From Massilia sp. erpn (GTDB taxonomy: Bacteria > Pseudomonadota > Gammaproteobacteria > Burkholderiales > Burkholderiaceae_D), in assembly GCF_024400215.1 (NCBI RefSeq), contig NZ_CP053748.1:496001-560000 (forward strand): a stretch of DNA of 64,000 nt. Reading direction: 5' to 3'. Under the pieces are notes generated by a model. The model saw only the letters and a program-made list of their open reading frames with translations, was not told the origin of the DNA and made no database searches. This document shows, piece by piece, positions 60,000 to 63,989 of the stretch. The position numbers and the translations under genes are program-made. Every line of letters begins with the position of its first letter. The first letter of the stretch is position 1.

Positions 60000-60076
60000 C
60001 GGGGTGTAGCTTAGCCCGGTAGAGCGCTACGTTCGGGACGTAGAGGCCGGAGGTTCGAATCCTCTCACCCCGACCA
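60000..60076 (+). tRNA. tRNA-Pro (anticodon CGG)
   Basis: A complete 77-nt tRNA with encoded CCA. The acceptor stem is CGGGGTG / CACCCCG. The anticodon stem CTACG/CGTAG holds the loop TTCGGGA, which gives anticodon CGG (reads CCG). The T arm is GGAGGTTCGAATCCTC. Its 3' end is the insertion site of the adjacent island. Confidence 0.97.
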
Positions 60077-60079
60077 AAA
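60030..60079 (+). repeat. Attachment-site direct repeat, copy 1 (in tRNA-Pro)
   Basis: These 50 nt, from the anticodon arm through CCA and three further A, recur at 63899-63948 with one mismatch (G at 60040, A at 63909). A tRNA 3' end repeated downstream is the hallmark of integration by a tyrosine recombinase. Confidence 0.9.
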
Positions 60080-60372
60080 ATCTTTACCCACAACTCTAAT
60101 CAGTTATTGGAGTAAATCTGCTGTCTCACTGTACTAAGAGGCTACAGCTCTCCACACGCTTGTTAACAACCGCGAATCCAGTTTAATCCCCCCTCCCTCC
60201 CTGTCATGCCGGCCACTGCTTCAACACCGCTAGCCTACGCTCTGCAGACCGTCACATCTTTTTGATACGAGACTTTTCGAAGTCAGCTTTACGCCTACGA
60301 TTGCCTAAGCTATCGGAACAACTAAAGTAGAATCAAACCATCTGGTAGTTGAATAGTTAAGGAAATACGACG

Positions 60373-61200
60373 ATGGAATATAGTGTTGCAGAGAGAGAAG
60401 CAATGGGACTTTGCATTTGCCTCGAAGCGCTGAACGGCTTGATGAATCATCAAATAATTTCTATAAATCCGACTAAGTCTGCGGAGAACGAATCTACGGC
60501 GATGTTCGACACAAGTATACATCGAGACTTGTTCTTAATACGACTGTTAGATTTTGCGAAAGAAAGTGGAGATAAGCAGCTAACTGGCGTGCAGGGTTCA
60601 TGCCTAACGGTTCTATCTGAGGCCTGCAAGAGTGCATCCTTTGAAGTTTCAGGTAGCGCCCGCTCTCTTCGGTCGGCAGTTAAGGAGATTGATGATTGGT
60701 TAAACCACGAGCGAGAAATGAAACTATGGCTTCCAACTCTTGGCGTTGATGCGAAAATTACAGTCTCTCGCATTGAATATCTAAGAATCGCGGGAAACTA
60801 CTCCAAGCACAATTTATCTCGGCTAAGTGCGTTATCGCGCCAAATTAAGCAGATTCTTTTAAACTCGGGGTACGCAGTTGATGAAGAAATGCTTCCGCTT
60901 GCACTCGATGATTTTCGTGAACATCTCTCAGAAAATTATTTCGCTTACTACGCCACCTGGTTAGCTGAGCTATTAAATAATTTGCACTGGGGAGTATACG
61001 ATTATTTGCTGCCAACATACATCAAATCCTATAGAAGTGATCCGCCAGCTTATTCTTACGATTACCCTAACCACATCCAAAACGAGATTCCTCGGCGTTG
61101 GTTTTGGCGGCTGATGAATAATGTAAGAACGCCTCCATATTTCAGTAAGTTTAAGGGCTTATCGTTTTTAAAAGGCGAAAGCTCCCTTGAATGGGATTGA
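60373..61200 (+). CDS. Hypothetical island protein, soluble, 275 residues
   Basis: Not recognised. The protein is predicted soluble and mainly helical. Visible segments are SIHRDLFLIRLLDFAKESG, a Ser/Lys-rich middle, RIEYLRIAGNYSKHNLSRLS (about 134-153), and an aromatic C-terminal third (FAYYATWLAELLNNLHWG). The Arg...Lys-His-Asn stretch loosely recalls HEPN-type helical proteins but does not match the R-x4-6-H motif, so I do not assign it. Composition is AT-rich like the island. It is upstream of the membrane protein on the same strand with a 43-bp gap and is likely co-transcribed. Confidence 0.75.
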   Translation: MEYSVAEREAMGLCICLEALNGLMNHQIISINPTKSAENESTAMFDTSIHRDLFLIRLLDFAKESGDKQLTGVQGSCLTVLSEACKSASFEVSGSARSLRSAVKEIDDWLNHEREMKLWLPTLGVDAKITVSRIEYLRIAGNYSKHNLSRLSALSRQIKQILLNSGYAVDEEMLPLALDDFREHLSENYFAYYATWLAELLNNLHWGVYDYLLPTYIKSYRSDPPAYSYDYPNHIQNEIPRRWFWRLMNNVRTPPYFSKFKGLSFLKGESSLEWD

Positions 61201-61243
61201 CAAGTGAAGCTTCATTTCCGTGCAATGTCAACAAGGAAAATTT

Positions 61244-61792
61244 ATGGCTGATGATGGATCGGTTATAAGCAAGGCCGTTGAAAAATTATCAGGTGCTCTA
61301 GAGAAACTAGTCGACAATCGAATGCTCGTACTAGGTGTCTCATTAGTGCTGTATTGGGATATCTGGATGATTTGGTTCAACACTGATATCGGGTCAATCT
61401 CGTTGGATGGAGCATTAGCGAAGCTCAAATTCCTACCCCTGCGCACAATGATCATATTCGTGGTCATCTATTCCATGCTGATGACAGTTGTCATACCTGC
61501 TGCAAGATACCTCTACAGTTGGGGCCATCTATATTATGGCGAACCTCGCTCCTCCGCCGAACCTAGAACGCTAGAAGAACGTCGTCTTTCGGATTGGGCG
61601 TTGGCGGTCCTAGTTTTCTACATCTGGGATTGGTGTGCAGGATGCCTCAAACCGGCTGGTCAATACAACGGCCTCGCTGTCTTTGTGTTTAAAGGCCTTT
61701 CTTCCAACGATGTTGTAACCATTGTTTTTCGTGTTTGCGTTGCGTTCTTCCTCTGGTTTTGTTTAATGATGGCGCTTGAAAAAGACTATTAG
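61244..61792 (+). CDS. Four-helix membrane protein of the island
   Basis: Not recognised. A 182-residue protein with a short helical cytoplasmic start (ISKAVEKLSGALEKLVDN) followed by four hydrophobic segments: MLVLGVSLVLYWDIWMIWF, TMIIFVVIYSMLMTVVIP, WALAVLVFYIWDWCAG, and VFRVCVAFFLWFCLMMAL. ATG at 61244 has AAGGAAAA upstream; a GTG at 61220 is less likely. Its position beside the preceding unknown gene suggests a two-gene unit. Small membrane proteins accompany many defence effectors, but nothing here proves that role. Confidence 0.75.
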   Translation: MADDGSVISKAVEKLSGALEKLVDNRMLVLGVSLVLYWDIWMIWFNTDIGSISLDGALAKLKFLPLRTMIIFVVIYSMLMTVVIPAARYLYSWGHLYYGEPRSSAEPRTLEERRLSDWALAVLVFYIWDWCAGCLKPAGQYNGLAVFVFKGLSSNDVVTIVFRVCVAFFLWFCLMMALEKDY

Positions 61793-61914
61793 CTCGAAGT
61801 TCAGAACTGTGCCTACCGCCACTGCTTTGCATGATAGTAACTTAGAAATTGTTGGCGTGCTCAGAAGTAAAAGTCTGGCAGCTAACTGACTGCACCTCAT
61901 TAATTGTTAGAATG

Positions 61915-63258
61915 TCATTTCTTTTTCAACATCTCTTCAATCGCATTGTGCTGCTGCAGTACCGCCATCGCCGATCTACGGGTAGCTTCTTCTTTTTCAA
62001 TCACCCGCTTAACCCTCTCAGTCGCACTTAACTGATCGATGCCCATGACTACTTTACGAGCAGCCTCCTCTCGTTCGATAGCTTTCTTAGCAGCTTCAAG
62101 CGCGTCAGATCGATCGCCACTTATCAATAACTTGCGAACCTCATCTTCTTTTTCAATAGCCTGCTTAGCCATCTTAAGCGCACTAAATTGATCAACGTTC
62201 CCCATCAACCGGCGTGCAGCCTCTTCTTTTTCAATCGCCTTCTGTGCGGCATTGAAGCCTGAAAGCCCATCGATTTGCTTCAGCTGCTGGTATAAAGTAG
62301 TAGCCTCAATACCTCTTTCAGTATACATAGCCATCCAATTGGCCACTTCGCTACCGATATCGCTAACGTGATTCGTATGAGGATCTGCCTTTATCTTTTG
62401 CAGTTCAGTTTGAACCGCCGCAACCTGCGCGCTCTGTAGCTCAGGCCTTTGCTCGGCTAACTCTTCAAGAGCTTGCTCAATTTTTGCAATTCTCTCATCG
62501 CGGACTCTAACGGCCTCTTGAAGCTCATTTTTATTGTTCTGCAGCACGCTAGCGAGCTTCAAGATAAAACCTCCAATATCATCGGCATTGCCAGCCATGC
62601 CATTAAAGACGCTAAGAAGATAAATCAACTGCGGGTCGTCTGAGAAATTGGGATACCGTACCTTATGGTCAATTTCGCTCCACCCTTCTTCGAATATAGT
62701 TCGCACTTGCAGTTCCAAATTGATCACGCGGTTCGTTGGCCGTGTAGCCAATATATAATGAATCGAACGATAATTACGCGGATGATCCTCCACAATAAAA
62801 CCGGATTCTTGATAACGTTTAGTAAGTTCGGAATTATCTCCGGCGCGCACATATGCAATTGGCGTATCCTTAATTTCAAACATTGCACGTACGGCAGCAT
62901 CAATCTCAAAACTGTCTGACTTAAACAAATGCAATGCCCTTATCCCGACAAGATCATCAACAATCTCAGCATAGTTTGCGGCCGAGATATTCATATACTT
63001 AGCGTTATTTTTGATCCTTTTTCGAATGATTTTTTCTAATAAATGTTCTGCATCTTTCACGCGCCACCGCACAGAGTGGACTGCACTAAAGCGCTGAATA
63101 AGATTGGCGCACATTGAGGCTGCAGCTTCCAAAGAGGCTCGCTGTGTCTCATGGTGCTCACCAATCAAAAGCAGCTCATTCCAGCTGATGTTGCTCAATT
63201 CCCAGTCAGCTTTTTTGATCCTGTTCGTAGCGAGAAACGTCTCGAAATCGCGCTGCAT
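61915..63258 (-). CDS. RelA/SpoT-domain (p)ppGpp synthetase-like protein with C-terminal repeats
   Basis: A 447-residue protein. The N-terminal domain (about 60-205) has the RelA/SpoT synthetase motifs: RWRVKDAEHLLEKIIRK, DDLVGIRALHLF with Mg-binding Asp102, HPRNYRSIHYIL (about 159-170), and LELQVRTIFEEGWSEIDHK (181-199). These fit transfer of pyrophosphate to a nucleotide. There is no hydrolase (HD) domain. A coiled region (about 240-290) and four 26-residue repeats at the C-terminus follow. AAGGAG lies 5 nt before the ATG at 63258. It lies convergent to the membrane-protein gene. Small RelA/SpoT proteins on islands include toxins and CapRel-like phage defences, but target and neutraliser here are unknown. 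Confidence 0.88.
   Translation of the reverse strand: MQRDFETFLATNRIKKADWELSNISWNELLLIGEHHETQRASLEAAASMCANLIQRFSAVHSVRWRVKDAEHLLEKIIRKRIKNNAKYMNISAANYAEIVDDLVGIRALHLFKSDSFEIDAAVRAMFEIKDTPIAYVRAGDNSELTKRYQESGFIVEDHPRNYRSIHYILATRPTNRVINLELQVRTIFEEGWSEIDHKVRYPNFSDDPQLIYLLSVFNGMAGNADDIGGFILKLASVLQNNKNELQEAVRVRDERIAKIEQALEELAEQRPELQSAQVAAVQTELQKIKADPHTNHVSDIGSEVANWMAMYTERGIEATTLYQQLKQIDGLSGFNAAQKAIEKEEAARRLMGNVDQFSALKMAKQAIEKEDEVRKLLISGDRSDALEAAKKAIEREEAARKVVMGIDQLSATERVKRVIEKEEATRRSAMAVLQQHNAIEEMLKKK
61918..62247 (-). repeat. Four 26-residue (78-bp) tandem repeats in the RelA/SpoT protein
   Basis: The C-terminal 110 residues repeat with a 26-residue period. The core AIEKEEAARRL recurs as AIEKEDEVRKL, AIEREEAARKV and VIEKEEATRRS, each followed by a variable GxxDQxSA-type segment. 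The DNA shows the matching 78-bp period (CTCTTCTTTTTCAAT-like blocks). The repeats are likely a helical or coiled-coil sensor or binding module. Confidence 0.85.
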
Positions 63259-63355
63259 CATCACTCCTTTCGCCTATAGATAGAACTATTCTATAGAAAT
63301 TTTTCCTCCCTCTGCTTTATCACTCGCATCTGCAGCGTCAATTTGATCTGCTTGA

Positions 63356-63841
63356 ACCAAGCCGGGTCCGGTCGCAGACATCACCTATATTCGAACATAT
63401 GGAGGCTGGCTATACTTGGCAGTTGTACCCGATCTGTTCTCATGTCAGGGCGTCGGGTGGCCGATGAGTTCGTGGATTGATATAGGGCTGGCGATCAAGA
63501 CACCACTAATGGCCGTTTTGCGATGCAAGCCTGCTGATCCCGTGACAGTTCATTCGGACCTACGCTCGCAGTTCGCCAACAATAACTGGCACGACTTCTT
63601 GGCGGAGCATCGGTTGGAACCAAGCATGAGCTGACGTGAAAACTGTCACCACAATGCTACCGGTGAAAGTTTCTTCCAGCTTCTGAATCGCAAGACCTGT
63701 GCAAACAGAGAAGGCGCAAGACAGGATGTCTTCAAGTAAATTGAAATGTTCTACAATCCGAAGCACCGCCACGGACTCAATAATAGACTTTCTTCAGCAG
63801 AGTTTGAGCGAAGGCATTTAGAACAGCTCACTGGTATCTAG
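63356..63841 (+). pseudogene. IS3-family transposase OrfB remnant
   Basis: One frame reads as the integrase core of an IS3-type transposase: PVADITYIRTYGGWLYLAVV, PDLFSCQGVGWPMS, VHSDLRSQFA, and after the first stop ENCHHNATGESFFQLLNRKT, FYNPKHRHGLNNRLS and RRHLEQLTGI. In-frame TGA and TAA interrupt it, and the start is missing and appears shifted near 63356. DDE residues are partly preserved (Asp in ADIT and in HSD; the final Glu in TGES). It is a decayed insertion sequence close to the right end of the island. Confidence 0.88.
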
Positions 63842-63898
63842 CAGGCTCATGGAGGTTCAAACTTGTCATGTTCTGCGGCCGATTGGGGTGTGGCAAGT

Positions 63899-63948
63899 CG
63901 TTCGGGACATAGAGGCCGGAGGTTCGAATCCTCTCACCCCGACCAAAA
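63899..63948 (+). repeat. Attachment-site direct repeat, copy 2 (right end of island)
   Basis: Fifty nucleotides identical to the tRNA-Pro 3' part except one position (63909). The 5' half of the tRNA is absent, so it is not a functional gene. Confidence 0.9.
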
Positions 63949-63949
63949 T

Positions 63950-63989
63950 GCAAAAGCCAGATCAAGCGCTTGGCTTATCTGGCTTTTTT
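63950..63989 (+). terminator. Terminator, probably the original one of tRNA-Pro
   Basis: AAAAGCCAGAT pairs with ATCTGGCTTTT, with inner AAGC/GCTT, and ends in a T run. It begins 2 nt after the right repeat. Without the island it would follow tRNA-Pro directly. Confidence 0.85.

Follow-up and report, generated by a model that had tools for sequence, protein, structure and literature searches.

A known single-gene immunity system built on an alarmone-type synthetase domain is CapRel, a fused toxSAS toxin-antitoxin protein with anti-phage activity; its SJ46 and Ebc homologues are 70% identical over their whole length and 47% identical in the C-terminal region, the part that determines phage specificity (PMC9712102). 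Two other kinds of described system are relevant to the locus presented here, namely the small alarmone synthetases of the RelP and RelQ type and the genomic islands that tyrosine recombinases insert into tRNA genes. The locus lies in Massilia sp. erpn, in a 64,000-nt stretch (the window; bases 496001-560000 of a single-contig genome of 6,148,115 nt), and consists of a small island in tRNA-Pro(CGG) that encodes a RelA/SpoT-type protein. The best joint explanation of its features, to which we assign about an even chance of being correct, is a decayed tRNA-Pro island that carries a single-gene anti-phage system of the RelA/SpoT family. The features on which this explanation depends are the following:

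60000..60076, plus strand: intact tRNA-Pro(CGG), the integration target (ARAGORN; Rfam RF00005, 66.7 bits).
60030..60079, plus strand: attL-like copy of direct repeat D1 within the tRNA, beginning in the anticodon arm and running 3 nt beyond CCA.
63899..63948, plus strand: attR-like copy of D1, the displaced 3' part of the tRNA, which differs by a single G-to-A change in the anticodon arm.
61915..63264, minus strand: gene of the RelA/SpoT-type protein, which has 449 aa if read from GTG and 448 aa if read from the next ATG (PF04607, phrog_2211, alignment A1).
62647..63063, minus strand: RelA_SpoT synthetase domain, residues 68-206 (PF04607, E 5.6e-15; catalytic residues checked).
61979..62239, minus strand: 78-nt units encoding 26-residue repeats of the protein tail (repeats D2 and D3; copies 70-85% identical; protein period 26).

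The original prediction of 50-nt near-perfect repeats that begin inside the tRNA and recur 3.87 kb further on, with AT-rich cargo between them, is confirmed. The two copies of D1 are identical in 49 of 50 nt, lie 3,869 nt apart from start to start and enclose 3,819 nt of GC content 0.455, as compared to 0.629 for positions 1-59999 of the window, where none of the 562 sliding stretches of equal length is as low in GC (minimum 0.562). The low-GC block extends from one repeat copy to the other; the predicted end at 63989 is 41 nt beyond the repeat. A search of the whole genome with the tRNA (E 0.001) gave four matches, of which two are the tRNA itself and its 3' fragment (98%) and the others lie elsewhere, both at 74%. 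The element is a small genomic island in tRNA-Pro, of a known and ordinary kind. A plain tandem duplication or an assembly artefact, in which case the repeat would not be an attachment site, has a counterpart in one relative (G095), where two complete tRNA-Pro copies occur in tandem ~6.9 kb apart with ~6.8 kb of GC 0.658 between them, and where the second tRNA is a segmental duplication rather than an island trace. In our locus, however, the second copy comprises the 3' part only and the ends of the low-GC block match the copies, and partial repeats bound low-GC DNA also in G024 (GC 0.53) and G032 (0.49), which makes duplication or artefact highly improbable.

The presence of a RelA/SpoT protein on the island, also foreseen in the original prediction, is borne out by the PF04607 match in a minus-strand open reading frame, convergent with the two other cargo genes, ORF1 and ORF2. 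Residues 10-303 of the protein match positions 10-311 of the 395-position profile phrog_2211 (E 2.3e-68). Active-site residues of the synthetase are kept; their presumed line-up with FaRel2 follows the spacing of motifs. No antitoxin-like gene is present on the island in the direction of the RelA/SpoT gene. At least 2,069 relatives of the protein were found, of which the 120 listed were used together with 46 viral copies, and 21 were included in alignment A1. The PADLOC candidate PDC-S33 matches 18 of the 21 aligned relatives (best E 1.6e-08). Among seven relatives inspected, a set that does not contain the best-scoring one, six match it over 35-68 residues around the active site and the seventh has no match; since the window protein itself gives no match either, its identity with PDC-S33 is not supported.

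For the analysis of the C-terminal tail, 159 of the 166 proteins were split 45 residues after the EIDHxVRYP motif, and seven proteins without the motif were dropped. Tails match in all 37 pairs with N-part identity of at least 80% (median tail identity 59%), in 226 of 233 pairs at 70-80% (median 49%), in 1,157 of 1,710 at 60-70% (39%) and in 1,468 of 7,065 at 50-60% (36%), where tail identities are those of the best local segments, which overstates tail similarity, and where the comparison covers the RelA/SpoT family only. As judged by these sequence comparisons, the tail is the fast-diverging part of the protein. Internal repeats beyond those in shuffled sequences occur in 40 of the 159 tails, most commonly with periods of 26 (11 tails) and 13 residues (8 tails), and the period in the tail of the window protein is 26. 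Beyond residue 188 the predicted structure contains helices only, much of it at pLDDT under 60.

Of 65 pattern-matching stretches of viral contigs, 50 encode relatives of the protein, and 46 of these loci (all except L098, L129, L137 and L138, which were dropped) were used in a neighbour analysis. No recurrent partner gene was found among the neighbours in the 46 loci, where the largest similarity cluster comprised seven proteins; the 133 neighbours considered (at most two genes away and at least 70 aa long) included five phage integrases, four cytosine methylases and four HTH_3 proteins, with three or fewer of any other family. A 5.1-kb Paracoccus plasmid encodes a relative beside BrnT/BrnA. 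The copy in the 12.1-kb PM2-like tailless Vibrio phage PQ189348 (L085:10606-11344) looks broken, since the match falls into two pieces and the annotation shows no more than a 240-nt gene there. In G278 (L161:9435-11219), a stop-interrupted copy adjoins a 153-aa gene in a block of ~2 kb with GC of 0.40-0.41, with no tRNA in 19.9 kb, and thus the same cargo family is present at another kind of site. Protein matches were obtained in seven of 74 genomes of the genus, namely our genome and six of the 73 others, the latter only at 25-35% identity within the synthetase domain, and in eight of 399 genomes of the order.

In our best reading, the RelA/SpoT protein would be a phage sensor and growth-arrest enzyme that works like CapRel but without the YXXY hinge, and the original suggestion of a defence or toxin cassette is plausible for this gene on the basis of its family context. 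Several observations weigh against such a role. The solved relatives closest by sequence, RelP, YwaC and YjbM, are of housekeeping type and are not toxSAS proteins, so that a non-defence alarmone role is possible, and the fold match to CapRel is weaker than that to RelP/RelQ. The window protein has no match among PADLOC models at E 1. The frequency in viral contigs concerns this family alone, and, because tails generally vary more than catalytic parts do, rapid divergence of a tail is no proof of sensing. The protein could accordingly be an ordinary (p)ppGpp synthetase, domesticated or selfish, that adjusts host growth and has no part in phage defence, a reading in line with its closest solved relatives, which are of RelP/RelQ type both by sequence and by fold. 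Its sporadic occurrence in the genus and the order, the location of its relatives in viral contigs, on a plasmid and in the small low-GC block of G278, and its fast-diverging tail argue against this reading, which we regard as rather unlikely.

The site in which the island resides receives insertions repeatedly. The 3' end of the tRNA, allowing at most three mismatches, occurs in 71 of the 74 genomes of the genus; some of the looser matches are to other tRNA-Pro genes. In six genomes, ours included, it recurs downstream of the CGG gene within 50 kb on that contig, at distances of 2.25 kb in G024, 5.7 kb in G032 and 41 kb in G008; the copy of G073, at 4.15 kb, is doubtful (41 nt at 92.7%, GC 0.595), and that of G095 is the complete second tRNA mentioned above. 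The N-terminal part of an integrase-like gene of G032 has matches in six of the 74 genomes, G032 included and our genome not, and in all six the match starts 118-135 nt after tRNA-Pro(CGG). The open reading frame is 484 aa long in G093 and 457 aa in G066, while the other four contain short open frames (68-207 aa). The first open reading frame in G008 encodes a clear but different integrase (PF00589, E 1.8e-21). A Pfam check of nine chosen proteins from inserts at this site in relatives identified Hcp in G024 and SIR2_2 and AAA_22 proteins in G032. The tRNA-Pro(CGG) site is thus an insertion hotspot, a single tRNA at which small low-GC inserts carrying genes of defence or competition type have come and gone.

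The 2.25-kb insert of G024 (L054:13144-15391) is bounded by tRNA-Pro on one side and by a 45-nt repeat of the tRNA 3' part on the other, and contains the Hcp gene (T6SS_HCP, E 1.5e-39) with small open reading frames, one of which, lacking a Pfam match, we take to be amidase-like. It has no integrase-like open reading frame and may represent a secretion-effector cassette at the same site.

Comparison with relatives, which the original prediction had proposed for this tRNA-Pro locus, gave a partial answer. The island DNA was searched against 60 relatives (36 of the same genus) and our own genome, with the four best candidates per genome scored. Matches were obtained in 14 of the 61 genomes, and all listed matches to the 13 others concern the IS part (window positions 63327-63861); among the candidates scored, the cargo proper has no DNA match in the 60 relatives. 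The presence of the cargo is sporadic. In the nearest relatives, G022 and G016, the left flank is conserved (96.8% and 96.5% identity) and no island is present at the tRNA, yet the sites are not empty. G022, which has a remnant of an integrase-like gene at the site, aligns with our right flank again from ~1.3 kb past the tRNA, but only from 13.5 kb into that flank. In G016 the right flank sets in 1.8 kb past the tRNA and is followed by a gap of about 11 kb; open reading frames at its site (L048:4890-6681) match HipA_C (E 6.8e-21) and HTH_3, and the HipA-like protein is apparently split or shortened. Absence of the island is therefore seen in both closest relatives, but a clean empty site was not found, as both hold other DNA there. 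Had most relatives carried these genes at this position, with no difference in base composition, this would have spoken against an island; it was not observed.

The first 140 nt to the right of attR have no match among the downstream stretches of 17 relatives. G022 lacks about 13.5 kb to the right of attR (L005:15010-19892 and L006), and G016 lacks most of this region as well. By eye, the region begins with a gene of an HTH protein, an arginyl-tRNA-synthetase-like gene and then enzyme genes resembling a biosynthetic cluster.

The lack of an integrase gene, noted in the original prediction, holds in all searches. Pfam and other integrase profiles match none of four island open reading frames tested, the rve match of the fourth being that of an IS3 transposase, and no integrase family appears among PHROGs matches of the three cargo proteins. 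A tblastn search with four integrase-like proteins from the tRNA site of relatives gave a best E of 0.14, as compared to 0.049 for the reversed-sequence control. The island has no integrase of its own, such as characterizes a self-mobile integrative element. Our genome encodes four PF00589 proteins, two of them presumably XerC/XerD-type recombinases, none with a tRNA within about 1.5 kb, and the integrase-like family of the relatives' site was not found in it. Phage satellites of PICI/P4 type combine an integrase with replication or packaging-interference genes; the three cargo open reading frames include none that match such families, and the island was not assigned to this class.

Of the two states suggested originally, a decayed island or a satellite moved in trans, neither is proven, but the former is favoured, because the integrase-like gene of the site is missing, the four PF00589 proteins of the genome are not encoded by a tRNA, the right end carries a truncated IS3 remnant and the cargo amounts to three open reading frames only. 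Alternatively, the island could be a still-mobile hitchhiker that has no integrase but keeps both attachment sites and is moved by an incoming tRNA-Pro integrase. The nearly intact repeats (49/50) and the inserts with integrase genes or their remnants at the same tRNA in relatives fit this possibility, and helper-dependent elements are well described as a concept (PMC11389934). Two findings weigh against the favoured explanation: the small repeat-bounded insert of G024 also lacks an integrase-like open reading frame, which keeps mobility in trans conceivable, and the integrase-like protein of G093 matches Phage_int_M at E 2.7e-4 only, below the cut-off, and has no PF00589 match. On the other hand, no related cargo copy was found at another tRNA-Pro, our genome has no integrase of the relatives' family, and the truncated IS3 at the right end and the attR mismatch suggest ageing. 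We consider a hitchhiker unlikely.

If the island is decayed and its RelA/SpoT gene anti-phage, its history may be envisaged as follows. A small element would have integrated into tRNA-Pro(CGG), most likely by means of a tyrosine recombinase, through a crossover somewhere between the anticodon arm and the 3' end; this would have restored a complete tRNA and moved the former 3' part out to 63899. The integrase may have been lost later, or the element may have arrived without one; an IS3 copy would have been gained and then mostly lost, leaving a remnant that is probably incapable of its own movement. The still-open RelA/SpoT-type gene would act as a single-gene anti-phage system, in which the N-terminal domain might move pyrophosphate from ATP to a guanine or adenine nucleotide or to a tRNA 3' end. 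The tail, helical and in part repetitive, probably keeps the enzyme inactive and senses a signal of infection, and activation would arrest growth before the phage completes its cycle.

The main value of the locus lies in the RelA/SpoT gene, which belongs to a large family listed by PHROGs as unknown. The active-site residues, the solo organisation and the variable, partly repetitive tail lead us to the tentative hypothesis, with somewhat less than an even chance, that PHROG 2211 is a widespread unstudied class of single-gene phage sensors, composed of a synthetase and a fast-evolving tail, which in part of the family consists of 13/26-residue repeats whose changes would retune recognition. If true, this would be a second fused synthetase-immunity design beside CapRel, without the YXXY latch and spread on prophages, plasmids and small islands, and would extend synthetase-type immunity to a design in which specificity may be altered through the repeats.

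The remaining content of the island, not included in the original prediction, comprises two further cargo genes, which together with the RelA/SpoT gene make up its three cargo open reading frames, and the remnant of an IS3 transposase:

60373..61200, plus strand: ORF1, 275 aa, member of a conserved family that is uncharacterised, with a confident model made up mostly of helices (homologues, alignment A2; pLDDT 88.5).
61244..61792, plus strand: ORF2, 182 aa, possible membrane protein (open reading frame call; about three hydrophobic stretches by hydropathy).
63327..63861 (approximate), plus strand: 3' part of an IS3-family transposase gene (PF00665, rve; NF033516).

ORF1 and ORF2 are separated by 43 nt, or by 19 nt if ORF2 starts at the upstream GTG at 61220. 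While ORF2 has only two relatives, ORF1 has 310, of which 120 were listed; the 32 aligned with it in A2 (33 sequences) are 52-59% identical to it, with mean column identity of 58%. ORF1 is rare in the order, being present in one of the 399 genomes, our own. It has matches in six named records (Nitrosomonas halophila, four metagenome-assembled genomes assigned to Desulfobacula, Electronema, Campylobacterales and Burkholderiales, and one Pseudomonas, the last over 37 residues) and, at 23-33% identity, in eight plasmid records. One of two such plasmids inspected has an AbiEii/AbiGii-type gene and an integrase gene nearby, and the other an adjoining AbiV-annotated gene; no common neighbour was seen by eye in the five contexts of ORF1 relatives inspected. 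Comparison of the ORF1 model with the Protein Data Bank yielded no clear solved match. The residues invariant in A2 (G141, N142, K145, H146, N147, R150) form a GNxxKHNxxR stretch that resembles HEPN motifs. The hallmark of HEPN ribonucleases is the HEPN fold with an Rx4-6H motif; no Pfam HEPN family matches ORF1 at E 1. The SAVED model of PADLOC gives weak matches in 10 of the 33 ORF1-family sequences (best E 0.0011). If PHROG 2211 proteins are indeed phage sensors, the cargo gene ORF1 would be independent of them and just as unstudied. The IS3 remnant is 76-79% identical to elements in G025, G018 and G008.

Compared with known systems, the element shares with tRNA-targeting islands and integrative elements of tyrosine recombinases the direct repeat derived from the 3' part of the tRNA, cargo of low GC, a sporadic distribution and location in an insertion hotspot, but it differs from them by the lack of an integrase, its size of 3.9 kb only and the IS3 remnant at its right end. 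Its RelA/SpoT protein matches the profile of PHROG 2211, a phage family of unknown function, over most of the model, although this copy resides on a chromosomal island and the last part of its tail is outside the match. RelP and RelQ (YwaC, YjbM), the best matches by sequence and fold, have the same synthetase fold and catalytic residues, while the window protein has in addition two ordered N-terminal helices, a tail of ~200 residues and a location on mobile DNA. With CapRel it shares the single-gene organisation, a synthetase domain that lies at the N-terminus and has the active-site residues, a C-terminal region as the part that diverges fastest, and a phage- and island-borne occurrence. The YXXY hinge of CapRel is present neither in the window protein nor, after EIDHxVRYP, in any of the 21 aligned relatives; where CapRel has a pseudo-zinc-finger beta domain, only helices are predicted, at low confidence, and some members of the family have 13/26-residue tail repeats. 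The pattern of divergence is thus similar to that of CapRel, but, since the YXXY is missing in 21 of 21 and no beta domain is predicted at this low confidence, the tail is probably not that of CapRel.
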